Positions 42,343 to 62,039 of a stretch of 64,000 bases of DNA are shown one piece after another. The stretch is from assembly GCF_012911935.1 (NCBI RefSeq), contig NZ_JAAXLA010000022.1:1-64000 (forward strand), given 5' to 3'. Source of the DNA: Pseudonocardia acidicola. GTDB taxonomy: Bacteria; Actinomycetota; Actinomycetes; Mycobacteriales; Pseudonocardiaceae. The position numbers and the translations under genes were made by a program. Below the pieces are notes generated by a model. The model saw nothing but the letters and a program-made list of their open reading frames with translations, made no database searches and was not told the DNA's origin. Positions within the stretch are counted from its first letter, which is position 1, and every line of letters starts with the position of its first letter.

Positions 42343-42731
42343 TCAGCTCCCCGGCAACCGGCCGAGTGTCACCGTCACCGCCGTAGTCCTGCCCTGCGGG
42401 TTCACGACGGTCAGCGGTGCGGACCGGCCGGGATTCGTCGCTGCGAGGACCCGGGACAGGTCGGCAGTGCTTCGCACCGGCGTGTTGTCGACGGAGGTGA
42501 CGACCTCACCGACCGACACGCCGGCCTTCGCCGCCGGCCCGCCGGCCACGACATCGACGCCACCGGCACCGGCAGGCCGCCCGTTCTGGCCGACCACGCC
42601 GACGACACCGACGCCCAACTCGGCCCGGTGAGAGTTCACGACGTGGCCGCCGTGAGCGACGAGCCCCCCGGCGATGTCGGTGACGACGTTGCTCGGGATG
42701 GCGAACCCGATGCCGTTGGTGATCGGGTGGA
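42343..42731 (-). pseudogene. C-terminal remnant (PDZ domain) of an HtrA/DegP-type protease
   Basis: The frame ending at 42343 encodes GIGFAIPSNVVTDIAGGLV, which is the end of a trypsin-like HtrA domain, followed by a PDZ domain: LGVGVVGVVGQNG, GGVDVVAGGPAAKAGVSVGEVVTSVDNTPVRSTADL. The catalytic His-Asp-Ser domain is absent. The DNA upstream encodes the GMC oxidoreductase in another frame, whose last 32 codons overlap this remnant. The remnant probably arose by a deletion or rearrangement that joined the two genes. Confidence 0.65.
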
Positions 42732-44417: not shown

Positions 44418-45165
44418 CGGTCCTCCTCCGCACGGGGTCGTCGGCGAACGCGCCGGGGGACTCGAACGGTTCCCGGACTCCGGGCCCTTCCCGTCCGGGC
44501 CCGCCCAGCCGCAGGAAGCCGCGCGGGTAGGCGGGGCCGCCGAAACCGATCTCGTTCCAGGCCCACGGGTGGGAGTAGAACTCCGACAGCACGGCCCGCA
44601 TCACCACCGACCACGCCCGGGCCACATCGAGCTCGTCCAAGGCGTCCCCGACCAACCGACCGGCCGCGAACTCGCCGACGATCGCCTCGCGCTGTTCAGC
44701 GGTACAGCCGGCGAAGCCCGTCCGGTATCCCTGGTCGGCGGTGTGGTCCAGCCCGCGCAGGGCCAGCCGCCAGGTGTCGCGGTCGTCGGGCATGTCGGCG
44801 TACCGGTAGCCGTCCAGGCGTCCGGCGGCGAGCTTGGCGTCGACCATCTCCGCGACCGGCACCCGCGGGTCGGCGTCCTGGGCCAGTGCGGTGTCACAGA
44901 ACGCGCGCAGCGTCGGTTCCTCGGCGGGGGTGAAGAACCGCAGCGGACCGGATGGTTCCAACCGGGCCATCACCACCCGCCTCGTCGCGTCGTCCCAGGC
45001 ATCGGCGGCGTCCAGGACGTCGAAGTCCGGGTAACGGCCGATCATCTGCGGGGTCGTGCCACGGCGCTGGCGGGGCAGCCACGACGGGGGCGGCGGTTGC
45101 CTGCCCGGGCGCAGCCTGGGCAGGTGTTCGCCATGCCGGGGGTCGGGCTCGTCGGTGTCCGCCAC
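44410..45165 (-). CDS. gluconate 2-dehydrogenase subunit 3-like protein
   Basis: A 251-residue protein of the gluconate 2-dehydrogenase subunit 3 family, a partner of GMC flavoproteins. FFTPAEEPTLRAFCDTALAQ, VPVAEMVDAKLAAGRLDGYRY and HPWAWNEIGFGGPAYPRGF are recognisable. A Tat or Sec signal is not obvious, which differs from exported members. The GTG at 45165 has a GGGAGGT site. It overlaps the GMC start by 8 bp. Confidence 0.82.
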   Translation of the reverse strand: MADTDEPDPRHGEHLPRLRPGRQPPPPSWLPRQRRGTTPQMIGRYPDFDVLDAADAWDDATRRVVMARLEPSGPLRFFTPAEEPTLRAFCDTALAQDADPRVPVAEMVDAKLAAGRLDGYRYADMPDDRDTWRLALRGLDHTADQGYRTGFAGCTAEQREAIVGEFAAGRLVGDALDELDVARAWSVVMRAVLSEFYSHPWAWNEIGFGGPAYPRGFLRLGGPGREGPGVREPFESPGAFADDPVRRRTDG

Positions 45166-45167
45166 CC

Positions 45168-45647
45168 TCACACCTCCCGGCGGAGGATCGCCGCGAGCAA
45201 ACCCATCCCACCGACCATGGCCATCAGCCCGGGCGCGGAGATCGGCGGCCCCATCGGCACGTTGTAGGAGGCGAGTCTCCAGCCACCCGGCTTGCGGGCC
45301 ACCCCACGAATGTGGAAGTACTCCCCCAGCAATCCATCCGCCGCGTACAACCCGGCGGCCACCGGGAGCGCGGTCTTGGCCCACCGCCGCGAGAAGACCC
45401 CGGCGATCCCCGCCGCCACCAGCGGCGGGGTCAGCAGCACCGGGCTCCACATCCACTTGTTGCCGAAGCTGGCCTTGTAGTGCTCGAGGTAGACCTCGGC
45501 CCCGGTCACCAGCGCGGACGCCGCGGTCAACCCGGACAGTGACCGCTCGAAGCGGCCGTGTTCCACGTTCCGGACCAGGCGGTCGACGGCATGATCGGCG
45601 TCGGTGGCGGCGCCGTGGTCGACGGCGCGCCTTCTCCGGACGGTCAT
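45168..45647 (-). CDS. integral membrane protein of the GMC operon
   Basis: A 159-residue protein with about three hydrophobic segments: LSGLTAASALVTGAEVYL, WSPVLLTPPLVAAGIAGVF, and LMAMVGGMGLLAAIL, with YKASFGNKWMWSP between them. No named family was recognised, but the arrangement suggests a membrane anchor or electron-transfer partner of the dehydrogenase. The ATG at 45647 follows AGAGGAG and begins 1 bp after the preceding stop. Confidence 0.75.
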   Translation of the reverse strand: MTVRRRRAVDHGAATDADHAVDRLVRNVEHGRFERSLSGLTAASALVTGAEVYLEHYKASFGNKWMWSPVLLTPPLVAAGIAGVFSRRWAKTALPVAAGLYAADGLLGEYFHIRGVARKPGGWRLASYNVPMGPPISAPGLMAMVGGMGLLAAILRREV

Positions 45648-48925: not shown

Positions 48926-49402
48926 TCAGCTCCGGAGCTTCTCCGCCGCGCTCAGCACCGACTTCACGATGGAGTCGTACCCCGTGCACCGGCAGAGGTT
49001 GCCGGAGATGCACTCCCGCACCTCCTCGGCCGTCGGGTCCGGGTTGCTCTCGAGGAACTCGGTCGCGCACATGAGCATCCCGGGGGTGCAGAAACCGCAC
49101 TGCAGGCCGTGGTTGTCCCAGAAGGCCTCCTGGAGCGGGTTCAGCTCACCCCCGTCGGCCAGGCCCTCCACGGTGGTGATCGTGCTGCCGTCCGCCTGGA
49201 CCGCCAGCATCAAGCACGCCCGCGCGGTGCGCCCGTCCACGAGGATCGTGCAGGCACCGCACACCCCGTGCTCGCACCCGAGGTGCGTGCCGGTGAGCCC
49301 GCACGTGTGGCGGATGAAGTCCGCCAGCGTCAGCCGTGGCTCGCAGTCCGCCGTGTAGACGTGGCCGTTGATGGTGACCGAGACCGTCTGCTTGTCGCTC
49401 AT
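48926..49402 (-). CDS. molybdenum hydroxylase small subunit, [2Fe-2S] (set 2)
   Basis: A 158-residue two-cluster iron-sulphur subunit of the CoxS/xanthine dehydrogenase type. The plant-ferredoxin-like cluster ligands are in GCEHGVCGACTILV and the second Cys-rich cluster is in QCGFCTPGML and CISGNLCRCTGYDSI. It passes electrons from the molybdenum centre to FAD. The start overlaps the FAD-subunit stop by 4 bp. Set 2 is ordered large, FAD, small. Confidence 0.95.
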   Translation of the reverse strand: MSDKQTVSVTINGHVYTADCEPRLTLADFIRHTCGLTGTHLGCEHGVCGACTILVDGRTARACLMLAVQADGSTITTVEGLADGGELNPLQEAFWDNHGLQCGFCTPGMLMCATEFLESNPDPTAEEVRECISGNLCRCTGYDSIVKSVLSAAEKLRS

Positions 49403-50274
49403 GCCTGCACCCCACTCCGCTCGACGGCCGCTGCGACGGCCCGCTTGACCAGCAGCCGGGCCATGTCCCGGCGGTAGGACGCGGGCGCGTGGACGTCGCC
49501 CGTCGGGTTGATGCTGTCGGCCACCGTCGCCGCGGCGGCGTCGATCACCTCCGCGGTCGGCTGCGCGCCGGCGAGGACGGCCTCCGCCGCGTGCAGCCGA
49601 ACGGGAACCGAGTCCACTCCGCTCGCGGCCAGCCGGACCAGATCGACCGAACCGTCGGACCCGAGATGCACGGCGGCCATCGCGGCCACGATGGCGAAGT
49701 CCCCGTGCCGCCGGGCCAGCTCCTCGACGGCGACCCCGGTTCCGGCCGGCAGGCGCGGCAGCCGGACCGCGGCCAGCACCTCGTCCGGTTCCATCGCCGT
49801 GGTGAACGTCCCCACGAAGAAGTCCTCGGCCACGATGGTGCGCGAACCCTTCGGGCCCTCCACCACCAGCTCGCCGGCCAGGCCGGTGACCAGGGCCGGG
49901 AGCTCGCTGGCCGGATCGGCATGGGCCAGGCTGCCGCCGATCGTTCCGCGGTTGCGGTTGGTGACGTGCCCGACGTGGTGGAGCGCCTGCGGCAGCAACG
50001 GGACGGCGTCTGCGACCGTCCGGCTGATCTCCACGTCACGCTGCCGGGTCATGGCTCCGATCAGCAGGCTTCCGTTGTCCTCACGGATGTAGTCCAGCTC
50101 GCCGACGCGGTTGATGTCGATCAGGATCGACGGGCGGGCCAGCCGGAAACTCATCAGCGGCACGAGGCTCTGTCCGCCGGCGAGCACCTTGGCGTCGGCC
50201 CCGTGCTCGCGCAGCAGCGCGACCGCTTCCTGCACATCGCCCGCACGGGCGTACTTGACGGCCGGGGGCTTCAT
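49399..50274 (-). CDS. molybdenum hydroxylase FAD-binding subunit (set 2)
   Basis: A 291-residue CoxM-type flavoprotein: AKVLAGGQSLVPLMSFRLARPS is the FAD-binding loop near residue 29, and the HVGHVTNRNRGTIGGSLAHADPASELPAL block near residues 100-130 binds the flavin. FAD oxidises the cluster electrons with an external acceptor. It overlaps the large-subunit stop and the small-subunit start by 4 bp each. Confidence 0.95.
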   Translation of the reverse strand: MKPPAVKYARAGDVQEAVALLREHGADAKVLAGGQSLVPLMSFRLARPSILIDINRVGELDYIREDNGSLLIGAMTRQRDVEISRTVADAVPLLPQALHHVGHVTNRNRGTIGGSLAHADPASELPALVTGLAGELVVEGPKGSRTIVAEDFFVGTFTTAMEPDEVLAAVRLPRLPAGTGVAVEELARRHGDFAIVAAMAAVHLGSDGSVDLVRLAASGVDSVPVRLHAAEAVLAGAQPTAEVIDAAAATVADSINPTGDVHAPASYRRDMARLLVKRAVAAAVERSGVQA

Positions 50275-52676
50275 GCCGACCCCTCCTTGCGCGACTGGGC
50301 TTCACGGATCAGCTCGAGGAGCCGGGGCGGGGTGATCGGGAACCGGGTCACCTTCACGCCGAGGTCGCTGAGCGCGTCGTCGACGGCGCTGGCGACCAGC
50401 GACACACCGGCGATCGTGCCTGCCTCCCCGACGCCCTTGACGCCGCCCGGGATGTCCGGTGCCGGCGTCTCCTGGTGGAAGAACTGGAACGGCGGGATGT
50501 CCATCGCCGTGGGCAGCAGGTAGTCCATGAAGCTGGCGGTCTTCAGCTGGCCTTCCTCGTCGTAGACGAGCTCCTCGAGCAGCGCGCCGCCCAGCGCCTG
50601 GGCCAGGCCGCCGGCGAGCTGGCCGTCGACCAGCATCGGGTTGATCACCGTGCCGCAGTCGTGGGCCTGCAGGCAGTCGAGCAGCGACACCATCCCGCTC
50701 TCGCGGTCGACCTCGACCAGCAGGACCGTGCAGCCGTAGGAGGTGGCCATGTTCGGCGGGTCGAACACGTCGACCTCCTCCAGCGTGGGCATCTCGTTCT
50801 CGGGCAGCCGGTCCAGCAGCCGCCGGTAGGCCGCGTCCCCGACGTCGCGGGTGGACACCGACTTGCCGGTCGTGCCGCGCACGCTGATCTCGCCGTTCTC
50901 GATCTCCAGGTCGTCCGGGGATGCCTCGAGCAGCTCGGCGGCCACCCGGAGGATCTTCGCGCGCAGTCGCGTGCTGGCCCGGAGGATCGAGGCACCGCCG
51001 AGCGGAGCGCCCCGGCTGCCGCCCGTGCCGTACCCGGTGAAGGGGCACGAGTCGGTGTCGCCGGTGACGACGACGACGTCGTCCATCGGGACGCCGAGCG
51101 CGTCCGCGGCGATCTGGGCGTAGGTGGTGTGGGTGCCCTGCCCCATGTTGATCTGGCCCGAGAAGACCGTCACCTTGCCGACCGAGTCCATCCGGACGGT
51201 GGCCTCGTCGAAGCCGGAGTGCTGCAGGCCGACCAGGTTCATGATCCGGCTGGGGCCGTAGCCGCTCGGTTCGATGTGGAAGGAGTAGCCGATCCCGACG
51301 GAGCGCCCTTCGGCCCGGGCCTGTGCCTGGCGCTCCCGCCAGCCCAGCTCCTCGACCTTGCTCATCGCGAGGTCGAGGCAGTCGGCGTACCGGCCGCTGT
51401 CGAAGGTGAAGGCAGCCCCGCTGAAGTAGGGGAACTCCTCGGGCGCGGGGAAGTTCTTGCGCCGGATCTCGGCCCGGTCCATCCCCAGTTCGCGGGCGGC
51501 GAACTCGATGAGCCGCTCGTGCACGATGTTGCCCTTGGGCGCCCCCCAGCCCCGGTAGGAACCATACGGCGCCCGGTTGGTCACGACGACCTTGACCGTC
51601 ACGTCGAGGTTGGGGATCTTGTACGGCCCCATGCACGTCAGTACGGACGCCCACGGCGGTCCGGAGCCGACGGTGCTGAAGGCGCCGCCGAGGACCCCGT
51701 AGGAGACCCCGCGCAGGCCGAGGATGGTGCCGTCGCTGCGCAGCGCCATCTCGAAGTCGAGGCGCTGGTCGCGCGAGTGACCGGTGGCGACGAAGCTGTC
51801 CGATCGGTCCTCGACGAGCTTGACCGGGCGGCCGGTGCGCCGGGACAGGACGGCGGCGATGACCTCCTCACCGTAGAAGTCGAACTTGTTGCCGAAGCCA
51901 CCGCCGAGGTCGGGCGTCCGGATGCGGATCTTGTGCACGGGTACGCCGAAGACCTCGCACAGCAGGTCGCGGGCGAGGTTGGGCGCCTGGGTCGACAGCC
52001 AGAGGTCGAGGGTGTCGGAGAAGGAGTCCCAGTTCACGATGCAGCCGCGCGGCTCCAGCGGGCACCCCATCGCACGGCCGTGCGTGAAGCTGCCCTCGAC
52101 CACGAGATCGGCCGAGGCGAACGCCTCGTCGGCGTCGCCGTTGGAGTAGGTGAGCGAGCCGCTGACGTTGTCGGGCCAGTCGTCGTACAGCTTGGGCGCG
52201 TCGGGCGCGAGCGCCGCGTCGAGGTCCGCCACCACCGGCAGCGGCTCGTACTCGACGTCGATCAGCTCGAGCGCGTCCTCGGCGACGTAGCGGTCGGTCG
52301 CGACGACGGCCGCGACCGCCTGCCCGACCCACCGGACGCGGTCGACGGCCAGGGCGTGCGTCTTCGCGATCCGCTGCTCCGGGATCGGGAGCCAGATGAC
52401 CGGCTGCTGGCCGGCGACGGCGGCGAGATCCTTCCCGGTGATGACGTCGAAGACCCCGGGCAGTTCACGGGCCCGGCTGGTGTCGATGCTGACGATGCGG
52501 GCGTGCGCGAGGGGGCTGCGCAGGACCGCTGCTTCGATCATCTTCGGCACTTCGACGTCGTCGATGAACATCCCTCGACCGGCCAGCAGGCGGGGATCCT
52601 CGGTACGCCGGATGCGGTTGCCGGTGTACCGGTTCGGACTATGAACCTGATCTTGAACGGGTTCAACCATGGTCAT
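50271..52676 (-). CDS. molybdenum hydroxylase large (molybdopterin) subunit (set 2)
   Basis: An 801-residue xanthine dehydrogenase-family large subunit. Visible elements are EDPRLLAGRGMFIDDVEVP at the N-terminus, PDLGGGFGNKFDFYGEE (Q-loop Gly-rich region), PYGSYRGWGAPKGNIVHERLIEFAARELGMD, GQINMGQGTHTTYAQIAADALGV, and VKGVGEAGTIAG with the catalytic Glu. SYRGWGAP lacks the AYRCSFR loop of true CO dehydrogenase, so the substrate is an aldehyde or N-heterocycle rather than CO. A 156-bp gap precedes it, so its transcription may be partly independent of set 1. Confidence 0.94.
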   Translation of the reverse strand: MTMVEPVQDQVHSPNRYTGNRIRRTEDPRLLAGRGMFIDDVEVPKMIEAAVLRSPLAHARIVSIDTSRARELPGVFDVITGKDLAAVAGQQPVIWLPIPEQRIAKTHALAVDRVRWVGQAVAAVVATDRYVAEDALELIDVEYEPLPVVADLDAALAPDAPKLYDDWPDNVSGSLTYSNGDADEAFASADLVVEGSFTHGRAMGCPLEPRGCIVNWDSFSDTLDLWLSTQAPNLARDLLCEVFGVPVHKIRIRTPDLGGGFGNKFDFYGEEVIAAVLSRRTGRPVKLVEDRSDSFVATGHSRDQRLDFEMALRSDGTILGLRGVSYGVLGGAFSTVGSGPPWASVLTCMGPYKIPNLDVTVKVVVTNRAPYGSYRGWGAPKGNIVHERLIEFAARELGMDRAEIRRKNFPAPEEFPYFSGAAFTFDSGRYADCLDLAMSKVEELGWRERQAQARAEGRSVGIGYSFHIEPSGYGPSRIMNLVGLQHSGFDEATVRMDSVGKVTVFSGQINMGQGTHTTYAQIAADALGVPMDDVVVVTGDTDSCPFTGYGTGGSRGAPLGGASILRASTRLRAKILRVAAELLEASPDDLEIENGEISVRGTTGKSVSTRDVGDAAYRRLLDRLPENEMPTLEEVDVFDPPNMATSYGCTVLLVEVDRESGMVSLLDCLQAHDCGTVINPMLVDGQLAGGLAQALGGALLEELVYDEEGQLKTASFMDYLLPTAMDIPPFQFFHQETPAPDIPGGVKGVGEAGTIAGVSLVASAVDDALSDLGVKVTRFPITPPRLLELIREAQSRKEGSA

Positions 52677-52832
52677 GGCGCGAGCTCCTCGTCGCTCCTC
52701 GAATCACCAGTACTGCGGAGGCATACGGCGGCCTGGCCCCTCGGGCTCTGCGGAGGGACCGTGGCCGGTTCAGCCGGCGGCGCACCAGACCGAGGTGCTC
52801 CGCCGCTGTTCGCGGATCGGGGTGGGTCTGTG

Positions 52833-55115
52833 TCAACTCTGAATCGCCGCGAGGACCTCCTCGGGGGTGATGGGGATGCTGTTCAGCGGCTTGCCGATCG
52901 CGTCGCTGACCGCGTTGGCGATGACCGCGGCCGGCAGCAGGACCGGGCCCTCCCCGACGCCCTTGGCACCGGCCGGGCCGTCCGGGTCGGGGTGCTCGAG
53001 CGCGAAGAACTCGACCCGGGGGACGTCGACGGCCAGCGGCAACCGGTAGCTCTCCAGCGTTCGCTCGCGGTAGCGGCCGTCGTCCCCGATCCGCAGGCTC
53101 TCGTGCAGGGCGTAGCCGATGCCCTGGGTGACCCCGCCCATCACCTGGCCGTAGGTGCCGTCGGGGCTGATGATGCGGCCGACCTCCTGGGCCACCAGGT
53201 AGCGCAGCACCCGCACGGTGCCGGTCACCGGATCAACCTCCACCTCGGCGAGATGCACGTGGTAGGTCGGGGTCGGGAACGAGGGCAGCATCAGTCCCGT
53301 CGCGCACCCCGGATTGAAGTCGGGGAACGGCGTGACGAACGAGCCGGTGCCCTGGATCGGGCCGACCGTGTTGGTCGCCGTGACGGCGACCTGGGCGATC
53401 GGCAGGGCGTTGCCCGGCGCGCCCTTGACCCGCACGGTTCCGTCGGCCACCTCCAGGTCGTCCACAGCCGCTTCGAGCAGCCCGGCGGCAACGTTCTTGA
53501 GCTTCTCGATGACCTCGTCGGCGGCGATCTGGGACGCCTTGCCGACGATCCGCGTGGTCCGGCTGCCCTGTGACCCCGCATCGAACCCGGCGACGTCGGT
53601 GTCCGGCATCGTGACGTACACATCGGACGGTGGGATGCCCAGGCGGTCGGCGACGATCTGGGTCACGCCCATCGACACCGCGCCCGATCCGTTGTCGGTG
53701 GCGGCGGTGATCACCGCGGCGGTGCCGTCCTCGTGCAGCTTGACGACTGCGGTGCCGGGCATGGGGTTGGTCAGCCACCACGCGGCGCCGATCCCGATGC
53801 CGCGGTAGGGACGCCTGCCGGCCTGCAGCTCCGCCCAGGGCGCGGCGGTCTCGATGGCCTCGAATCCCTTCCGCAGGATGCCGGCGTCGTGCAGTACCTG
53901 GCCGTTGAGCAGTTCCTCACCGTCGGTGAACAGGTGCCGCAGCCGGTACTCCCGCCGGTCGAGCCCCAGCTCGGACGCGATGTGGTCGGTGTGCCGCTCG
54001 ACCGCGTGGTACAGGTAGGTGCCGTTGACGCCGCGGAACGCGCCGGTGGGGGCGGTGTTCGTGTACACCAGCCGCGCGATGACCCGGGTGGGACCGGCGC
54101 GGTAGACGCCGCGGGCACAGTGCAGCGCGATGCTGGCCAGCCACGGCATCTCACCGCTGTAGGCCCCGTTGTCGGCGATCACCTCGAGCTCGCGGGCGAG
54201 GACGTTCCCGTCCTCGTCGACCGCGGAGCGCAGCCGCGTGATCGCGTTCTCGCGGCTGGGGCAGGTGAGCAGGTCCTCGGTGCGGGTGTTCACCAGCTTG
54301 ACCGCGAGCCCGCCCGCGGCCCGGGACAGCAGCGCCGCGTACGGCTCCAGTCCGGCGTCGAGCTTGGCACCGAACCCGCCGCCGATGGTGTGGCCGACCA
54401 CCCGCACCGCCGAGGGCCGCACGTCGAGGAACTGCGACACCCGGTCGCGCACGTTGTAGGGGAACTGATGGGCGGTGTGCACGGTGTACCGGCCGTCGCG
54501 GAAGATGCCGACGGCGCTCTTGGGCTCGATGTAGGCCTGGTACTGGCGCTGTGCGACGAACTCGTCCTCGATGACCCGGTGAGCCTCGGCGAACGCCTCG
54601 TCGACCCCGGGTGGGTCGGAGATCGACTCGGCGGCGATGTTGCCGCGGCGGGGGAAGTCCTCGCCTGCGGTCGGGACGAACGCCTCCCAGCCCGGGTGGA
54701 CGAGTGGCGCGTCCGGGGCCATGGCCTCGGCCAGGTCGACCACCGCCGGCAGCGGCTCGATCTCCAGTTCGATGGCCGCGACGGCCGCGCGTGCCTGGGC
54801 CAGGGTGTCGGCGGCCACCGCGGCGACCGGCTGGCCCTCGTAGTGCACGACGTCGGCGGCGAACAGCCGCTGGTCCCGCAGCACCCAGCCCGCGTAGGTG
54901 TCCGGCGCGTCCGCCGCGGTCAGGACGGCGTGCACGCCGGGCATCGCCGAGGCCGCGGCGGTGTCGAGGCGGGTGATCCGCCCCGAGCTCACCGGGGAGC
55001 GCAGCAGGGCGCCCCAGATCATGCCGGGCTCGGAGTAGTCGACTCCGTAGACGGCCTCGCCGCTGACCTTGGACCGTCCGTCGGAGCGCGGGACCCGTTC
55101 ACCGATGACCGTCAT
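52833..55115 (-). CDS. molybdenum hydroxylase large (molybdopterin) subunit (set 1)
   Basis: A 760-residue xanthine dehydrogenase-family large subunit: GERVPRSDGRSKVSGEAVYGVDY at the start, GHTIGGGFGAKLDAGLEPYAALL, DNGSGAVSMGVTQIVADRLGI, AGFDAGSQGSRTTRIVG, and AKGVGEGPVLLPAAVIANAVSDAIG with the catalytic Glu. The active-site loop reads TGAFRGVNGTYLYHAVERHTDH, which is unlike the usual YRGxGxPE. It shares only about the family frame with the set 2 large subunit, so the two sets are not recent duplicates. The ATG at 55115 overlaps the small-subunit stop as ATGA. Confidence 0.93.
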   Translation of the reverse strand: MTVIGERVPRSDGRSKVSGEAVYGVDYSEPGMIWGALLRSPVSSGRITRLDTAAASAMPGVHAVLTAADAPDTYAGWVLRDQRLFAADVVHYEGQPVAAVAADTLAQARAAVAAIELEIEPLPAVVDLAEAMAPDAPLVHPGWEAFVPTAGEDFPRRGNIAAESISDPPGVDEAFAEAHRVIEDEFVAQRQYQAYIEPKSAVGIFRDGRYTVHTAHQFPYNVRDRVSQFLDVRPSAVRVVGHTIGGGFGAKLDAGLEPYAALLSRAAGGLAVKLVNTRTEDLLTCPSRENAITRLRSAVDEDGNVLARELEVIADNGAYSGEMPWLASIALHCARGVYRAGPTRVIARLVYTNTAPTGAFRGVNGTYLYHAVERHTDHIASELGLDRREYRLRHLFTDGEELLNGQVLHDAGILRKGFEAIETAAPWAELQAGRRPYRGIGIGAAWWLTNPMPGTAVVKLHEDGTAAVITAATDNGSGAVSMGVTQIVADRLGIPPSDVYVTMPDTDVAGFDAGSQGSRTTRIVGKASQIAADEVIEKLKNVAAGLLEAAVDDLEVADGTVRVKGAPGNALPIAQVAVTATNTVGPIQGTGSFVTPFPDFNPGCATGLMLPSFPTPTYHVHLAEVEVDPVTGTVRVLRYLVAQEVGRIISPDGTYGQVMGGVTQGIGYALHESLRIGDDGRYRERTLESYRLPLAVDVPRVEFFALEHPDPDGPAGAKGVGEGPVLLPAAVIANAVSDAIGKPLNSIPITPEEVLAAIQS

Positions 55116-55588
55116 CGTCCGTTCCTCCCGGCAACCGTCGCGGCGACCGCGTCGAGGATCTGGCTGTAGCCCGTGCAGCGGCAGATGTTGCCCGCCAGCG
55201 CGGTCCGCAGGTCTTCTTCGGACGGCGCGTCGTCCTCGCGCAGGACGGCGACCAGGGTGGTGATGAACCCCGGCGTGCAGAACCCGCACTGCACACCCCC
55301 GGCCGCGACGAACGCGGCCTGCAGGTCACGGCCGAGGTCGTCGCGGGTCATCCCCTCGACCGTCTCGATCTGTCGGCCCTCGGCCGCGCCGGCGGCGTAG
55401 ATGCACGAGTCCACCGGCAGACCGTCGATCAGCACGGTGCATGCGCCGCATTCACCCTCGCTGCAGCCCTCCTTGGTCCCGGTGAGGCGCAGGCGCTCCC
55501 TCAGGACGGAGAGCAGCGTCTCCGCGGGGTCGATCTCGGCCCGCGCAGGCTTGCCGTTGACCGTGAAGTTGACTTCCACCACTCTCAC
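55112..55588 (-). CDS. molybdenum hydroxylase small subunit, [2Fe-2S] (set 1)
   Basis: A 158-residue CoxS-type subunit with cluster motifs GCSEGECGACTVLIDG and QCGFCTPGFI and the closing NICRCTGYSQIL. It links the molybdenum and FAD subunits. The start overlaps the FAD-subunit stop by 4 bp, and its own stop overlaps the large-subunit ATG. In set 1 the order is FAD, small, large, which differs from set 2. Confidence 0.95.
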   Translation of the reverse strand: MRVVEVNFTVNGKPARAEIDPAETLLSVLRERLRLTGTKEGCSEGECGACTVLIDGLPVDSCIYAAGAAEGRQIETVEGMTRDDLGRDLQAAFVAAGGVQCGFCTPGFITTLVAVLREDDAPSEEDLRTALAGNICRCTGYSQILDAVAATVAGRNGR

Positions 55589-56457
55589 CCTTCGCCGTCC
55601 GGGGCGGACTGTCCCGCTCGCTGCGCGCAGATCCCGGCCGCCCTCTGCAGCAGCCCGGGAATCACCCGCCGCCGGTAGTCCGCGGTCCCGCGCAGGTCGT
55701 CCACGGGCGTGATGTCGAGCAGGACGGCGTAGGCAGCCGCCTCCAGCGCAGCCGGCTCGAGCCGGCTGCCGACGAGCGCCGCCTCGGCATCGGCCGATCG
55801 CAGCGAGCGGGGGCCGACCGAGGCCAGCGCGATCCGGGCGTCACGCACGGTGCCGTCGGGCTCGAACGCCAGGCGCATCGCCAGCCCGACGATCGCCACC
55901 TCCATCGCGCTGCGCCTGCCGACCTTGAGGTAGACGTCGCCGCCGGCCTCGCCCGGGTCGGCCAGGATGATCTCGGTGAGCAGTTCGTCCGGTGCACGGG
56001 TCGTGGTCCGCCGTCCGACGACGAACTCCTGCACCGGCACGGTCCGGCTCCCCGCGTTGCTGCGCAGCGTGACCCGGGCGTCGTGGACGAGCAGGGCAGG
56101 CAGCGTGTCCGCGGCAGGCGAGGCGTTGCAGACGTTCCCGCCGATCGTGCCGACCACCTGCGTCTGCAGCCCACCCACGGTGGACGCCGACTCGGCGATC
56201 GAGCGGAACCTCGCGCCCAGCACGCCCTTGGCCAGGTCACGATGGGTCACCAGCGAGCCGAGGCGAGTGGCGCCGTTCGCATCGATCCCCCGCAACTCAG
56301 CAATCTTCTCGACGTGGAGCAGGACCGAGGGAGTGATCTCCCCGCGGGCGAGCTGGATCATCACGTCGGTACCGCCGGCGAGGACCTGACACTCGTCCCC
56401 TCGGCCGCCCAGCACCGTGAGGGCTTCGTCGAGGGAGTCGGTCGTGCGTAGCTCCAT
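55585..56457 (-). CDS. molybdenum hydroxylase FAD-binding subunit (set 1)
   Basis: A 290-residue CoxM-type FAD subunit: CQVLAGGTDVMIQLARGEITP near residue 30, VGTIGGNVCNASPAADTLPALLVHDARV for flavin binding, and the C-terminal CO-dehydrogenase flavoprotein domain. The ATG at 56457 has an ideal GGAAGGAGGTGTC site. The 168-bp gap upstream of this start contains a 12-bp motif shared with the pucR promoter region. Confidence 0.95.
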   Translation of the reverse strand: MELRTTDSLDEALTVLGGRGDECQVLAGGTDVMIQLARGEITPSVLLHVEKIAELRGIDANGATRLGSLVTHRDLAKGVLGARFRSIAESASTVGGLQTQVVGTIGGNVCNASPAADTLPALLVHDARVTLRSNAGSRTVPVQEFVVGRRTTTRAPDELLTEIILADPGEAGGDVYLKVGRRSAMEVAIVGLAMRLAFEPDGTVRDARIALASVGPRSLRSADAEAALVGSRLEPAALEAAAYAVLLDITPVDDLRGTADYRRRVIPGLLQRAAGICAQRAGQSAPDGEG

Positions 56458-56549
56458 GACACCTCCTTCCGAGTCGGTCGAGTAGGGCCAATCTAGGAAT
56501 GGCCCGGCATTCGAGCCATGTGCCGGTTCGATGGGTTCACAGTCATTCT

Positions 56550-56561
56550 TGTGCAGGTTGC
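56550..56561 (-). promoter_or_regulatory. 12-bp motif shared with the pucR upstream region (site 1)
   Basis: On the minus strand this reads GCAACCTGCACA, identical to 60434-60445 on the plus strand. It lies about 95 bp before the FAD-subunit start and a few bases after a partial copy (GCAACCGTGCAACC). A PucR binding site is suspected. Confidence 0.45.
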
Positions 56562-56625
56562 ACGGTTGCGGATGCAGCGACCGCGCGCCGATACCGGCCC
56601 GAAACACGACGGATACATGTCGGCC

Positions 56626-58191
56626 CTAATGGATCTTCAAAGGCCCCGCCGCCTTGACCCGAATGCGGGCGACCGGCTCGGTGAGATACGCCAGCGGCAC
56701 CTCTTCGACCTCGACCACCTCCACATGAGCGGGGTCCGCACCGGCCCGGATCGCCTCGTCCCGAGCCAGCTGCACGGCCTCGGCGATGGCCTCGTCCCGG
56801 CCGTCCTTGCCGTAGGCGAACACCCGGTCGAGCTCCCCGGACACCGACGCGATGGCCGCGCCGATCGCGTTGGCCACGTCGTAGTTCTCCGGCCGGTGCA
56901 CGCCGGCCACGCCCTCCAGCGTCTCGGGGATCAGCCCGCTGCCACCACCCACGGCGATCAGCGGGAGCTCTCGACCGGAGGTCTTCACCCGGTCGACCGC
57001 GTCCTCGATCCGGGCGTCGCTGGCGGTGATCGCCCGGAGCAGCAGCTCCTCGAACCCGGTGGTTCGACCGGCGTCGCCGATCCCGCTCGCGCGCCCGGAG
57101 GCGACGATCGCATCGGTGATGGTCGGGACCGCGCCGCCGAACACCAGTGCCTCGGTCGACAGCCGATAACCGACACTGCCCGGACCGAGAGCGACCGTGC
57201 CGTCGGACTCGCCGAGGATCGTTCCGCCGCCGATCGCCAGCGACACGAGATCGGGCATCCGGAAGTTCGTCCGGACCCCGCCGATCTCGACGGCGGTCGA
57301 CGACTCCCGCGGGAACCCCGAGATGAGGATCCCGATGTCGGTCGACGTGCCACCGACGTCGACGACCAGGGCGTCCAGCGCCCCGGTCAGGTAACTGGCT
57401 CCGCGCATGCTGTTGGTGGGCCCACTGCCGATGGTCAGGATGGGATAGCGACGGACATAGTCCAGACTCATCAGCGTGCCGTCGTTCTGCGCGATGTAGG
57501 CCTCGGCGGTGATCCCGTTGGCGCTCATCGCGTTGCTCAGCCCGGCGGTGACCCGGGCCGCGACCCCGACCAGCGCCGCGTTGAGAACGCAGGCGTTCTC
57601 CCGCTCGAGCAGCCCCAGGGAACCGATCTCGTGGCTCAGCGACACCGGGATGTCGCCGAGCACCTCCCGGACCAGTTCCTCGACCCGGTACTCCTGATCC
57701 GACAGCACCGGCGAGAAGACCCCGGAGATCGCCACCCCCTCGGCCTGCTCGCGCACGCCGTCGAGGAAGCGGCGCACAGCGTCCTCGTCGAGCGGGACGA
57801 TCGGCTCGCCGGTCATCTCGACCCCGCCGTCGACGATCGTCTCCCCGCACGAGATGGCGGCCTTCAGATCCGGCGGCCAGCCGGCCAGCGGAGGGATGGA
57901 GAGCGTCGCCGGGCCGCCGAGCCGAATCACGGCGACCCGGTTGAGGTTGCGCCGCTCGAGAATGGCGTTGGTGGCGTGCGTCGTCCCCAGCATGACGTGG
58001 CTGACGTTCCCGGCTGCCCCGTCCAGCTGTTCGAGGACGCGCCGGAGCGCCGAGAGGATCCCCGTGGTCACGTCGGGGGTGGTGGGGTGCTTCACCTTCG
58101 CCAACAGCCGATCTTCCTTGTCCAGGATGACGGCGTCGGTGTTGGTGCCGCCGACGTCGATCCCGACCCGCAGGCCACCCAGCTCACGCAT
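56626..58191 (-). CDS. hydantoinase/oxoprolinase HyuA-like protein
   Basis: A 521-residue ASKHA-type protein of the hydantoinase/oxoprolinase N-terminal family. GIDVGGTNTDAVILD is the N-terminal phosphate-binding loop, MLGTTHATNAILERRNL follows, LSHEIGSLGLLERENACVLNAAL sits in the linker, and VVDVGGTSTDIGI plus VGGGSGLIPETLEG form the C-terminal lobe. HyuA-type proteins couple ATP to opening of cyclic amides such as hydantoin or 5-oxoproline, usually with a HyuB partner. No HyuB is present; the neighbour is a DUF917 protein with which this group is often paired. The start overlaps the DUF917 stop by 8 bp. Confidence 0.88.
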   Translation of the reverse strand: MRELGGLRVGIDVGGTNTDAVILDKEDRLLAKVKHPTTPDVTTGILSALRRVLEQLDGAAGNVSHVMLGTTHATNAILERRNLNRVAVIRLGGPATLSIPPLAGWPPDLKAAISCGETIVDGGVEMTGEPIVPLDEDAVRRFLDGVREQAEGVAISGVFSPVLSDQEYRVEELVREVLGDIPVSLSHEIGSLGLLERENACVLNAALVGVAARVTAGLSNAMSANGITAEAYIAQNDGTLMSLDYVRRYPILTIGSGPTNSMRGASYLTGALDALVVDVGGTSTDIGILISGFPRESSTAVEIGGVRTNFRMPDLVSLAIGGGTILGESDGTVALGPGSVGYRLSTEALVFGGAVPTITDAIVASGRASGIGDAGRTTGFEELLLRAITASDARIEDAVDRVKTSGRELPLIAVGGGSGLIPETLEGVAGVHRPENYDVANAIGAAIASVSGELDRVFAYGKDGRDEAIAEAVQLARDEAIRAGADPAHVEVVEVEEVPLAYLTEPVARIRVKAAGPLKIH

Positions 58192-59251
58192 AGCGATCCA
58201 CCACCGAGACGAAGTCGAAGTCGTAACCGAACGCGCGGGGCCCGACGGCTGCCAGCCCTTCCGCGGTGGTCCACACCGGGGGCGAGGGGAATGCCACGAT
58301 CTCGATCCGCTGGCCGTACCGGGTGCCCTCGGTCACGATCCCGTGCCCGGTGTGCATGTCGAGCAGCGTGATGATGTCCGGGACCGTCGCCAACGGCTCT
58401 CCGTCCTCGAGCACGACCAGGTTCTCGTTCTGGAACTCCAGCCGGAACAACCGGCCTTTGTCGGCGCCGAGACCCTCGACCAGCGCGGAGCCGCGGACGA
58501 ACCCGCCACTGGTGCGCCGCTCGATGTCGACCACCTTGCCCTGCCCCAGGCGGATCACGGGCGCGACCTGTGCGATCGAGTCGATCGGCTCCTCACCGCC
58601 GCGCCGGATCGCCTCGCCCATCCGGACCGCCCTGCTCACCGTGCCCGGGATGATCGGCCGCCGCGCCTGCCCCACGGTCATGGGATACAGCCCGCCGCAG
58701 GCCGACCCGCCGAGCGAGGCGACGCAGTTGCGGACGAGCTTCTCCAGCCAGATGTTGTCCCGGGTGTTGAAGACGACGGTCTGCAGACGCTCGTCGGTGA
58801 TCACCGCGGGCGACCCGGGGATCCCGTACAGGTGCGGGGTGAGCATCTGGAGCTCGGGAAAGGCCCGGCCCATGAAGTCCCCGTCCAGCAGCGGCAGGCC
58901 CGCATAGGCGGCCCACGCCACCGGCAGGACCCCGTTGATTCCGCCCATCTCGAACGGCATCACCGCGGCGACGGGCCGGCCGAACTGGCGCTCGTACGCC
59001 TCGCGGATGACCCGGCCCTCGGCGCCGTTGGGGATCTTCTCCACCATCACGGTCGGGGCCCCGATCATGCCGCAGGGCATGATCAGGTCGTCGTCGCCGA
59101 AGGCGTCCAGGGGCTTGACCTCCACCGGGCCCAGCTCGCGGATCGCCTCCATCGCCATCAGCTCGCCGATCCGCGGGTCGCCGCCACCTCCACCGGCGAA
59201 CACCGTGCAGCCCAGCGAGAGCGCGGGCAGGTTGCCCTGGTCGATGCGCAT
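58184..59251 (-). CDS. DUF917 family protein
   Basis: A 355-residue protein of the DUF917 family: LGCTVFAGGGGGDPRIGELMAMEAI near the N-terminus, DLIMPCGMIGAPTVMVEKIPNG, PVAAVMPFEMGGINGVLP, and YPMTVGQARRPIIPGTVSRAVRMGEAIR. Family members are commonly encoded beside HyuA-type genes. Function is not established. I used the ATG at 59251 because homologue-like sequence starts there. A GTG at 59302 would overlap the LLM stop as GTGA, which is the pattern elsewhere in this operon, so it remains possible. Confidence 0.85.
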   Translation of the reverse strand: MRIDQGNLPALSLGCTVFAGGGGGDPRIGELMAMEAIRELGPVEVKPLDAFGDDDLIMPCGMIGAPTVMVEKIPNGAEGRVIREAYERQFGRPVAAVMPFEMGGINGVLPVAWAAYAGLPLLDGDFMGRAFPELQMLTPHLYGIPGSPAVITDERLQTVVFNTRDNIWLEKLVRNCVASLGGSACGGLYPMTVGQARRPIIPGTVSRAVRMGEAIRRGGEEPIDSIAQVAPVIRLGQGKVVDIERRTSGGFVRGSALVEGLGADKGRLFRLEFQNENLVVLEDGEPLATVPDIITLLDMHTGHGIVTEGTRYGQRIEIVAFPSPPVWTTAEGLAAVGPRAFGYDFDFVSVVDRYA

Positions 59252-59298
59252 GCCTGTCGTCCCCGCGAGGCCCGGCCGTCCGCGATCTCGCGCAGCCG

Positions 59299-60297
59299 TC
59301 ACCGGGCCAGCCTCGGCAGCACCTCGGCGGCGATCAGCTTGAGCTGGGTCTCGAGCGAGTCGGCGGGCTGCGGGGACAGGATCACGCAGTCCGCCCCGGC
59401 CGCCCAGTACTGCTCGATCCGGGCCGCGGCCTCGTCCGGGGTGCCCGAGATGGCGAGCACATCGATCCAGTCCTCCGGCATCCCTTCCAGCAGCGCGTCG
59501 TAGCCGCCTGCGGCGATCAGGGCGGACACCGCGTCGTTGATGCCGATGGAGCCGGTGAGTGGCGTCGGGCCGACCGCGTCGAGGTAGAAGGCCAGCGACT
59601 GCTTGACGGCGGCTCTGGCACGGTCGCGGTCGTTGTCGACGGCGGTCAGCACGTATGTCGGCACGCTGAACGAGCCGGTGCGGCCGGCCTGGCTCATGCC
59701 CTGCAACCCGAGCGACCGCGCCCAGGTGACGTACTCGGTCGGGGCGAGCACGGACAGCACGTTTCCGTCCGCGATCCGGCCGGCCAGCTCGCAGCCCTTC
59801 TCACCGATCACCCCGAGGTACAACGGGACATCGGTCAGCGGCGGGTGGACCAGCGCGACGTCACCGAAGGTGAAGTACTCCCCCTCGGCCGTGTAGGGCT
59901 CGCGACCGGTGAGCACGGCGCGGATCCCGGTGACGGCTTCTTCGAGGGCCCGCATCGGCGAGCGGGGCGTCAGGCCCATCTGCCTGACCCAGGACGGAAC
60001 GCCGTGGCCGATACCCGGTACGAACCGGCCCGGGAACGCCCGGTCCAGCGAGGCGATCTCCATCGCCGCCGCGGCCGGGTGGCGAGCGACGCACGACATG
60101 ATGCCGAGGCCGACCCGGATCCGCTCGGTGGCCGTGAGCGCCTGCGCGACGCCGGTGAAGCCGCCGTAGAAGAAGTAGTCCTCGGCGAGCCAGATCTCGT
60201 CGAAGCCGAGCCCTTCGCACAGCCGGGCCAGCCCCGGGAGACGCTCCGGAGCGGTGGTACTGAGCAGCAGGATGCCGAGCCGACGGTCGTCCGTCAC
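59299..60297 (-). CDS. LLM-class flavin-dependent oxidoreductase
   Basis: A 332-residue bacterial luciferase-like TIM-barrel: LGILLLSTTAPERLPGLARLCEGLGFDEIWLAEDYFFYGGF, the ERIRVGLGIMSCVARHPAAAAMEIASLD block, and GRFVPGIGHGVPSWVRQMG, a pattern shared by FMN- and F420-dependent members. The GTG at 60297 has an AAGGGGCG site. It is the first gene of the minus-strand catabolic cluster and faces pucR across 194 bp. A ring-opening monooxygenase or an F420 dehydrogenase role are both possible. Confidence 0.92.
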   Translation of the reverse strand: MTDDRRLGILLLSTTAPERLPGLARLCEGLGFDEIWLAEDYFFYGGFTGVAQALTATERIRVGLGIMSCVARHPAAAAMEIASLDRAFPGRFVPGIGHGVPSWVRQMGLTPRSPMRALEEAVTGIRAVLTGREPYTAEGEYFTFGDVALVHPPLTDVPLYLGVIGEKGCELAGRIADGNVLSVLAPTEYVTWARSLGLQGMSQAGRTGSFSVPTYVLTAVDNDRDRARAAVKQSLAFYLDAVGPTPLTGSIGINDAVSALIAAGGYDALLEGMPEDWIDVLAISGTPDEAAARIEQYWAAGADCVILSPQPADSLETQLKLIAAEVLPRLAR

Positions 60298-60433: not shown

Positions 60434-60445
60434 GCAACCTGCACA
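60434..60445 (+). promoter_or_regulatory. 12-bp motif shared with the upstream region of the first molybdenum hydroxylase (site 2)
   Basis: GCAACCTGCACA, identical to the minus-strand site at 56550-56561. It sits 46 bp before the pucR start in the divergent LLM/pucR promoter region. It is a candidate binding site for PucR itself. Confidence 0.45.
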
Positions 60446-60491
60446 TGTTCAGGGGCTTGATTGTGGGTCCAGCACAGTGTGAGAGTGGGTC

Positions 60492-62039
60492 ATGGTTCGG
60501 CCGACCGTCGCGGGCGTACTCGCAGAGCTGGAACGTTCCGAGCCCGGCCTCGCCGAGCTCCTGGCCGGGTCGGCCGATCGGGAGATCCACTCCGTCTGGC
60601 TGGCCGAGGACCTCAGAGAGCTCGACGGCTGCCCCCGGCAGGCGCTGGTCCTGCTGAGCCGGACTGCCTCCCAGCACGCGCAGGGCTACAAGCTCGACGT
60701 GGCGTTACGGCGGCTGGGTGACGTCGCGGGCCTGGTCCTGCAGGCCGAGGCCCCGAGGCCCTCACTCAGCGCCCTCGCGCTGGCCCGGCGCGAGGACCTT
60801 CCGCTGGTCCGGCTCACCCGCTCCGCCGACGTCACACAGCTACTCAGCACCGTCATCCGGATGCTCGATGCGCAGCTTCCGACGCTGCTGGAGCGGGCGA
60901 TCCGGGTGTGCCGCGACATCGATCGGCTGGAGACGGGTGACATCAGCGATGAGGACCTGGTGCGGGACAGCGGGGCCGCCGAGCTGTTCGGCCTGACGCT
61001 GGGCAGCCGTGATCCTCGGCTGAGCGGCGTCCCGGCCGTGATGACCGAACCGGACGGCCCCTGGCTGCAGCGGGAGCCGACCGTCACCTCGGAGGATTCG
61101 CTGGCGGAGCTGTCGATGTGGCGGCTCTGCGCCGCGATGACGAAACGCTCCATCGAGACCGATCGCGCCGAGCAGCTGTGCATGCTCTCGGCCGGCGAGC
61201 TGCTGAACCAGCTGCTGGATCCCGGAACCGACGACAGCGGCCCGCTGCTGCGCAGGGCGGCGGACATCGGGGTCCGCGTCGAGGGATGGAACCAGGTGAT
61301 CATCCTGGAGTTCGCGAACCTCCTCGCCCTCGCCGAGGACGATCCGGTCACCGCCTACCGCTACACCCAGACCGTGAGCCGGGTGGCCGCGCAGACCGCA
61401 TCGCAGCAGGAGGGGCGCTGGACCATGGCGCCGAGAGCCGGCGGGATGCTCCTGTTGCGAACCGGGAATCACCCCGAGGGCCCGGCCGGCCTGCGGCGGC
61501 TGCGCTCAGCGGTGCAGACCGTGCTCGATCGCGCCCTCGAGTCGTTCCCCGGTGTGCACATTCTGTGCGGCATCGGCGGATCGCACGAGGGGCTGCAGGG
61601 GCTGCGCGCCTCCAGAGCCGAGGCGGACGCGGCCCTGCAGAGCGCCCGCCTCCGCGGCGCGTCCAACGAACCCGTCCTCTTCGACGCGCCGGGCCTGAGC
61701 CGGCTCCTGGTCGAGTGGTACTCGTCCAGCTCGGTGCGCCAGAGCGTCGACGACCTCTTCGCACCGTTGGCCGATCTCGGCGAGGCCAGGCAGAAGGAGT
61801 ACAGCACGACGCTGCGGGTCTACCTGGAGAACAACCGCTCCGTCAGCCGCACCTCCCGGCAGCTGTACCTGCACCGCAACACCGTCACGTATCGGATCAA
61901 CAGGATTCTCGGCGTGCTCGGCGTCGACCTCGACGACCCCAACCAGTTCCTCGCGGTCTACCTCGCCTGCTACGCCCAGTCGATGTCGCACTGCGCCGGA
62001 GGTCTCCGCCGCGGACCGGAGGCGTCCGTCGAGGGCTGA
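60492..62039 (+). CDS. PucR-family transcriptional regulator
   Basis: A 515-residue regulator with the PucR N-terminal ligand-sensing region (VAGVLAELERSEPGLAELLAGSAD..., residues 1-130), a middle GGDEF-like CdaR/PucR domain, and the C-terminal PucR HTH: LRVYLENNRSVSRTSRQLYLHRNTVTYRINRILGVLGVDLDD. PucR regulators commonly sense purine breakdown intermediates or other small metabolites. It is divergent from the LLM-DUF917-HyuA-molybdenum hydroxylase genes and is probably their activator. Confidence 0.92.
   Translation: MVRPTVAGVLAELERSEPGLAELLAGSADREIHSVWLAEDLRELDGCPRQALVLLSRTASQHAQGYKLDVALRRLGDVAGLVLQAEAPRPSLSALALARREDLPLVRLTRSADVTQLLSTVIRMLDAQLPTLLERAIRVCRDIDRLETGDISDEDLVRDSGAAELFGLTLGSRDPRLSGVPAVMTEPDGPWLQREPTVTSEDSLAELSMWRLCAAMTKRSIETDRAEQLCMLSAGELLNQLLDPGTDDSGPLLRRAADIGVRVEGWNQVIILEFANLLALAEDDPVTAYRYTQTVSRVAAQTASQQEGRWTMAPRAGGMLLLRTGNHPEGPAGLRRLRSAVQTVLDRALESFPGVHILCGIGGSHEGLQGLRASRAEADAALQSARLRGASNEPVLFDAPGLSRLLVEWYSSSSVRQSVDDLFAPLADLGEARQKEYSTTLRVYLENNRSVSRTSRQLYLHRNTVTYRINRILGVLGVDLDDPNQFLAVYLACYAQSMSHCAGGLRRGPEASVEG

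Follow-up and report, generated by a model that had tools for sequence, protein, structure and literature searches.

A conserved PucR-linked operon of Pseudonocardia acidicola joins two molybdenum hydroxylases to a short HyuA/DUF917 pair: a candidate N-heterocycle degradation locus

The 64,000-nucleotide stretch of Pseudonocardia acidicola DNA analysed here (the window; positions 1 to 64,000 of contig NZ_JAAXLA010000022.1) carries a real, conserved operon of nine genes divergent from a gene for a PucR/CdaR-type transcription regulator. The operon encodes two three-subunit molybdenum hydroxylases (flavin (FAD), small and large subunits FAD1, S1, L1 and FAD2, S2, L2), an LLM-class oxidoreductase, a DUF917 protein and a short HyuA-type ATPase of the ASKHA fold. 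With a probability of about one half, it may be a PucR-controlled catabolic operon for an N-heterocycle, built of two sub-modules. Most surprising to a specialist would be that DUF917 stands systematically at the place of HyuB, beside a truncated HyuA.

Organization and conservation of the operon

All nine minus-strand open reading frames (ORFs; 48926-60297) and the divergent regulator gene (60492..62039, plus strand, 515 aa) are intact. From the PucR gene outward, the order is LLM (59299..60297), DUF917 (58184..59302), short HyuA (56626..58191, 521 aa), FAD1 (55585..56457), S1 (55112..55588), L1 (52833..55115), L2 (50271..52676), FAD2 (49399..50274) and S2 (48926..49402). Pfam assigns the LLM protein to Bac_luciferase, DUF917 to S-Me-THD_N/C (another name of DUF917), HyuA to Hydant_A_N and a partial Hydantoinase_A, and both hydroxylases to FAD_binding_5/CO_deh_flav_C (FAD subunits), Fer2/Fer2_2 (small subunits, 2x[2Fe-2S]) and Ald_Xan_dh_C/MoCoBD_1/MoCoBD_2 (molybdopterin large subunits).

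An initial annotation, made from the DNA letters and their translations, had described nine mostly overlapping minus-strand genes facing a PucR regulator and two complete hydroxylases with different gene orders and distinct active-site loops. This description stands in full: six of the eight junctions overlap by 4-8 bp, the exceptions being the HyuA-FAD1 gap (168 bp) and the L1-L2 gap (156 bp), domains and coordinates agree on the orders FAD-small-large (56457-52833) and large-FAD-small (52676-48926), and the loops read GAFRGVNG in L1 and GSYRGWGxPK in L2. That annotation had also remarked on a HyuA-like protein without a HyuB; indeed no HyuB adjoins it, and the protein further proves to belong to a separate, shorter type paired with DUF917 in place of HyuB.

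For comparison, 77 related loci (L numbers below) were fetched with DUF917 as query, and the window proteins were placed on them by tblastn; ORF calls on unannotated stretches are heuristic, and FAD1 and S1 of L124 come from tblastn. The identical ten-gene order, including the regulator orthologue at the same place, recurs in seven other Pseudonocardia loci (L006-L012) from isolates and metagenome-assembled genomes (MAGs), among them P. asaccharolytica (L006) and P. dioxanivorans CB1190 (L009), and the gene set is therefore beyond chance. In relatives the junctions are closed even where the window has gaps. Thus, the L1-L2 spacing is -4 to 33 bp in five of these eight loci, HyuA and FAD1 lie within 21 bp of each other in three of the eight, and all junctions from DUF917 through S2 measure at most 21 bp in P. 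asaccharolytica; large negative LLM-DUF917 distances in L010 and L011 are an artefact of start picking and were excluded. As the L1 stop and the L2 start overlap by 4 bp in three loci (L006, L009 and L012), the two hydroxylases belong together. The conserved order stops at S2, since the genes beyond it mostly differ between loci; the close relatives L009 and L012 have a common flank, and L006 and L007 each carry past S2 one extra small gene that recurs in related loci. Scans for Sigma-70 promoters and for terminators gave no site.

The 156-bp L1-L2 spacer (52677-52832) is itself conserved in three genomes (counterparts at 9142-9310 of L007 and 16412-16580 of L008), with a mean column identity of 85%, and is devoid of the promoter element described below.

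The short HyuA and its DUF917 partner

The HyuA-type genes of the own genome (G000, 7,158,478 bases) form two sets. All five short forms adjoin DUF917 and none goes with HyuB, whereas all six long forms have HyuB (PF02538) beside them or fused to them (fused on contig C93); none of the six PF02538 genes of the genome lies near a short HyuA. Across the 77 loci, DUF917 and short HyuA stand on the same strand within 300 bp in 74 (exceptions L063, L072 and L080), with a median gap between BLAST matches of 27 bp, and 84 of the 108 DUF917 places are so arranged. The pair spans actinobacteria to Firmicutes and archaea. HyuB sequences match only two of these loci, L032, beside its own long HyuA, and L041, at the edge and about 7 kb from the pair; neither match adjoins a short HyuA.

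Relatives of the short HyuA in these loci (n = 67) measure 513-558 aa, among ORFs pre-selected at 480-580 aa. The Hydant_A_C domain occurs in the three long but in none of the three short forms scanned, and 83-87 C-terminal residues are missing relative to five separate long forms. An AlphaFold model of the short HyuA (pLDDT 90) aligns with CapA (6yra) over 498 residues, spanning CapA residues 6-613 (Z 29.5, root-mean-square deviation (rmsd) 3.5); the C-terminal barrel of CapA comprises residues 623-696 (PMC8453981). The phosphate-1, lysine and phosphate-2 motifs described for CapA in that paper are retained: D12, G14, G15, T16 and D19, K34, and D278, G280 and T282 are invariant in 47 sequences, the first motif reading DxGGTNTD in place of DxGGTFTD. 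The adenosine motif GxxPGP is found in none of eight short forms aligned (the window protein and seven others) and in all six long forms of the own genome. The short HyuA shares with the CapAB/N-methylhydantoinase/5-oxoprolinase systems (PMC8453981) the ASKHA core, both phosphate motifs and the lysine. It differs from them in lacking Hydant_A_C, GxxPGP and a metal-binding HyuB/CapB subunit, and has DUF917 instead.

The DUF917 protein exceeds the Pfam gathering scores of both PF06032 and PF20906 (170.9 and 210.7 bits). Its AlphaFold model (pLDDT 93) matches 2o3i, a structural-genomics protein without assigned function, over 336 residues (Z 40.9, rmsd 2.1); the next row scores Z <5, and neither Foldseek nor VIA-align found another convincing fold relative, a missing match that does not amount to a new fold. 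Residues invariant in 50 sequences include E88, E118, D140, D142, R146, E187, R191, N292 and E293. The NCBIfam models of thiohydantoin desulfurases (NF058532, NF058529), whose role lies in ergothioneine breakdown, match residues 26-338. The window protein belongs to the same two-domain family as these enzymes but stands far below the equivalog cut-offs, with 77.5 (S-methyl thiohydantoin desulfurase) and 59.1 bits against 450 and 440, and sits beside a short HyuA and hydroxylases; among 60 genomes of the phylum, no protein exceeds the cut-off for S-Me-THD proper.

DUF917 is seldom named in the open-access literature searched, with four papers in all. One of them, PMC11055893, calls DUF917 proteins experimentally uncharacterised, suggests a hydantoinase activity for them and reports their enrichment together with hydantoin racemases in cyclodipeptide-oxidase gene clusters. 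Neither the operon nor a DUF917/HyuA partnership appears among the open-access matches listed, a coverage that leaves out most subscription papers.

Around the pair, the 77 loci display a permease family (one member of which was scanned by Pfam and is Transp_cyt_pur, NCS1) in 32 cases, regulators of two PucR-type families in 27 and 8 cases, and racemases of one Asp/Glu/hydantoin family in five; these neighbours would fit a nucleobase- or hydantoin-like substrate class. A further transporter (f18, from Haloechinothrix and Prauserella) is called NCS1 only from its BLAST similarity to 6 of the 32 members of the permease family (F2), and Pfam and PDB searches with it gave no match at E 0.001.

In L042-L044, L047-L049, L051, L053, L067 and L071, a single short HyuA has two or three copies of DUF917 behind it, and most of these loci have an NCS1-type permease in front.

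The hydroxylases and the LLM enzyme

Both hydroxylases are of the xanthine-oxidase family, each being a three-subunit set with molybdenum-cofactor, FAD and 2x[2Fe-2S] domains. The glutamate of the GxKGxxE motif (E719 in the first row), the conserved active-site residue of this family, is invariant in 20 large-subunit sequences. The loop GSYRGWGxPK (GSYRGWGAPK in the window) stands in all eight L2 rows, and some of the 12 L1 rows depart from GAFRGVNG at one or two residues.

The closest solved structure to L2 is quinoline 2-oxidoreductase QorMSL (1t3q; 583 bits over the whole length), although the L2 loop GSYRGWG differs from that enzyme; carbon monoxide (CO) dehydrogenases come second (541 bits and below). 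By its nearest solved relative, L2 thus marks one of the two enzymes as an N-heterocycle-type hydroxylase. The closest solved relatives of L1, 4-hydroxybenzoyl-CoA reductase and xanthine dehydrogenase (XDH)-type enzymes, are distant (278 bits). The cysteine loop of CO dehydrogenases, which reads AYRCSFR in the alignments, is absent from L1 and L2, and both large subunits remain under the XDH equivalog cut-offs: for XdhA (780), PRK09970 (916), pucD (783.65) and xanthine_xdhB (849.5), L1 scores 404, 381, 373 and 250 bits and L2 430, 412, 379 and 269 bits. The LLM protein has F420-dependent Mer enzymes as best solved relatives, with 159 and 138.7 bits against Mer equivalog cut-offs of 276 and 348.7.

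The nicotine pathway of plasmid pAO1 also combines two molybdenum hydroxylases with a PucR-like regulator, PmfR, and opens the ring in another way than proposed here; to our knowledge, it has neither DUF917 nor HyuA. Its 6-hydroxypseudooxynicotine dehydrogenase is among the solved relatives of L1 and L2, and PmfR has a weak match here (31 of 800 bits). On plasmids, neither L2 nor DUF917 was found to have a close relative, every best place having <60% identity.

Large subunits of this family are abundant: L2 gives 34 match rows in the own genome, a number that includes fragments, and the genomes behind seven relatives (L006, L008-L013) have 15-32.

A promoter element shared by the regulator region and FAD1

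Alignment of the region between PucR and the first gene in nine loci revealed TGTGC twice, 31 bp apart. The window carries this element, TGTGC-N26-TGTGC, in the PucR/LLM intergenic region (copy R1, an exact copy, 60441..60476, minus strand) and, in opposite orientation, upstream of FAD1 (copy R2, 56519..56554, plus strand). With at most one mismatch, R1 is kept in nine of nine loci on the operon strand and R2, on the other strand, in all five loci examined that have a gap there. The genome of 7.16 Mb holds 11 exact sites, against three for the reversed pattern; three of the 11, those whose surroundings were looked at, lie in clusters of this type (R1 and R2 of this locus, on C80, and one between LLM and HyuA on contig C105). 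The 77 loci have 18 exact sites at spacing 31 (L011 twice, once per strand), whereas each of 47 other spacings yields 0-6, and two of the 18 (L031, L078) lie elsewhere than at promoters of these genes. The positions include the L2 promoter of P. kujensis (L013), a site some 200 bp ahead of the L1 set in Haloechinothrix (L021/L124), and promoters of NCS1-HyuA units in Saccharopolyspora, Amycolatopsis and Prauserella. If one mismatch is allowed, 6 of the 32 permease-bearing loci carry the element, while other spacings give about 0.045 sites per locus. More independent support for the element comes from R2, from the C105 site and from the promoters of other genera.

Because the element is found near these regulators, we infer that the PucR protein may bind it. 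The regulator combines a PucR C-terminal HTH_30 domain (PF13556, 78.8 bits) with a GGDEF-like domain (PF17853, GGDEF_2). As the N-terminal domain PF07905 was not detected at E 0.001, "PucR" is to be read as a family label, without evidence for purines. A palindrome at 60438-60453, CCTGCACATGTTCAGG, had been considered as the operator and was dropped, as relatives do not conserve it.

Two separable sub-modules

Within the stretches fetched, a large subunit of the L1 or L2 type is present in 20 of the 77 loci, and 18 of these 20 have the LLM gene as well. Both types occur together in 13 of the 20 (L006-L015, L020, L021 and L023), the L1 set of L021 and L023 sitting just outside the first fetched stretch. 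L2 is seen alone in L022 (first fetched stretch). In Tetrasphaera (L020/L125), one PucR gene is flanked by both sets: FAD1-S1-L1-DUF917-HyuA is divergent from it, and LLM-L2-FAD2-S2 lies downstream on its strand. Elsewhere in the own genome, contigs C33 and C105 each carry two DUF917/short-HyuA pairs, a PucR gene, an L1-like large subunit (56% and 39% identity to L1, respectively) and a second hydroxylase.

An order-wide survey covered 200 genomes, the own included, with up to nine and then five candidates per genome. Besides the window, it gave at least six places with at least 45% identity to L1, four of them within 11 kb of DUF917, and at least six with at least 60% identity to L2, one of which is 1.6 kb from DUF917; the remaining five sit in genomes where this survey found no DUF917.

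Some further genes accompany these sub-modules. The L2 sub-module is repeatedly found together with genes for DUF1028, an alpha/beta hydrolase and a SnoaL/NTF2-like protein (L013, L021-L023, L143, L147); no paper on DUF1028 was found in the open-access literature searched. A HapK-family protein of about 104 aa (PF11639) recurs beside LLM or S2 (L007:13102-13416, L016:12451-12768, L113:10778-11092 and others), and tblastn found none in the window. Two MAGs, of Acidimicrobiales (L063) and Poseidoniales (L072), share almost the same L1-HyuA cluster, which also holds genes for an M24 peptidase, a PALP enzyme and SnoaL; its binning to both a bacterium and an archaeon reflects either recent transfer or a binning error.

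Proposed pathway

The nine genes are probably co-regulated as one catabolic unit, because their order is conserved, their junctions are closed in relatives and they share a promoter element. In the pathway that we propose, sub-module B, the quinoline-oxidoreductase-like hydroxylase (L2-FAD2-S2) with the LLM oxidoreductase, would hydroxylate the ring at a position adjacent to a nitrogen, after which the LLM enzyme would reduce or oxygenate the product. Sub-module A would comprise FAD1-S1-L1, DUF917 and the short HyuA. A second oxygen introduced by L1 would yield a cyclic lactam, imide or hydantoin. Next, the short HyuA would phosphorylate the lactim oxygen, and DUF917, standing in for HyuB, would let water displace the leaving group and so open the ring. 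The name S-Me-THD implies the substitution of an S-methyl leaving group, a reaction of the same kind. A substituted imidazole hydroxylated twice to hydantoin would fit as candidate chemistry. More generally, and somewhat short of even odds, the short HyuA and DUF917 could form a two-protein, nucleotide-dependent opener of lactams, imides or hydantoins, in bacteria and archaea, in which the unrelated DUF917 has replaced HyuB. In Pseudonocardiaceae, this pair would form part of operons with two hydroxylases and also, alongside NCS1-type permeases, of others, and would be switched through TGTGC-N26-TGTGC.

Weighing the alternatives

Several observations weigh against this pathway. Concerning the pair, the loci behind the 74-of-77 count were fetched with DUF917, which therefore cannot tell how often a short HyuA lives without it. 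A GYRLxxEA-like stretch stands in the short HyuA where CapA-type subunits have GxxPGP, so that ATP use is not assured. No histidine or cysteine is invariant in the 50 DUF917 sequences, which leaves no visible counterpart of the Asp-His-Asp-His metal site of CapB, and structure comparison found no fold relation between DUF917 and HyuB; the hydrolytic role of DUF917 therefore draws on the S-Me-THD name and on gene order. Concerning the promoter element, it was derived post hoc from R1 and many of the loci are close relatives; with one mismatch allowed, the whole window has four sites against 4.9 in shuffles, that is, no excess, the element is absent from the L1-L2 gap (R3, three loci), and C33 carries a one-mismatch copy only. 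Concerning the unity of the operon, L1 occurs without L2 in L016, L017, L018, L019, L063 and L072. Furthermore, L147 has L2, two LLM genes, DUF1028, an alpha/beta hydrolase and PucR but no DUF917, four genomes (L146, L148-L150) have L2 with neither LLM nor DUF917 nearby, and two L1-type genes of one surveyed genome (G068) are not near DUF917. The second hydroxylases of C33 and C105 share 41-42% identity with L2, a value that other paralogues reach as well. As each hydroxylase also occurs without the other, the two are separable sub-modules. The initial annotation had proposed degradation of an N-heterocycle in which two successive hydroxylations would precede ring opening. This class of pathway is plausible and partly supported, by the probably co-regulated unit, the quinoline-type L2 and the permeases and PucR-type regulators near many pairs; on separate regulation of the hydroxylases, which that annotation named as speaking against a common pathway, the evidence so far is in its favour.

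That separability, the 156- and 168-bp gaps of the window and the abundance of large subunits in the genome (the 34 match rows, some of them fragments) would also be accounted for by two unrelated catabolic units with different substrates, set side by side through repeated acquisition in a genome rich in molybdenum hydroxylases. This reading is rather improbable, given an L1-L2 spacing of -4 to 33 bp in five of eight loci, the identical order in all eight, the single PucR gene between both sub-modules in Tetrasphaera (L125) and the element shared by R1 and R2. A somewhat stronger, though still unlikely, alternative keeps the operon and changes the task of the pair, which would remove an exocyclic substituent (for example sulfur or S-methyl, in line with the S-Me-THD name) or serve the hydroxylases as an activase or chaperone ATPase. 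Named functions are matched within the DUF917 family for thiohydantoin desulfurases only (NCBIfam), whereas the window protein is far below their cut-offs (77.5 and 59.1 bits against 450 and 440). The ASKHA fold is common to reactivases and dehydratase activators; however, the pair is adjacent in 56 of the 57 loci whose fetched stretch showed no large subunit of either type (L1 or L2), which disfavours a hydroxylase activase. Ordinary purine or xanthine/hypoxanthine catabolism under PucR, suggested by the family name of the regulator, the XDH-like subunits and the NCS1-type permeases near relatives, is very improbable and was rejected as the principal explanation: no XDH cut-off is reached (404 and 430 of 780 bits for L1 and L2 with XdhA), PF07905 was not found in the regulator, and none of the ten proteins is placed by Pfam in a uricase- or allantoinase-type family.

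Outside the operon, a GMC oxidoreductase adjoins a gluconate 2-dehydrogenase subunit 3-type protein (42636-45456 of the window), perhaps as a membrane dehydrogenase pair.

Implications

If the N-heterocycle operon is what it appears to be, it would add a degradation route for a class of compounds relevant to pollutants and natural products, and its promoter element would offer a handle for finding the inducer. Named isolates such as Pseudonocardia dioxanivorans CB1190 (L009) allow the roles of the short HyuA and DUF917 to be tested directly. A rule by which a short HyuA belongs with DUF917 and a long one with HyuB would allow annotators to tell apart two enzyme systems now bearing the same name.

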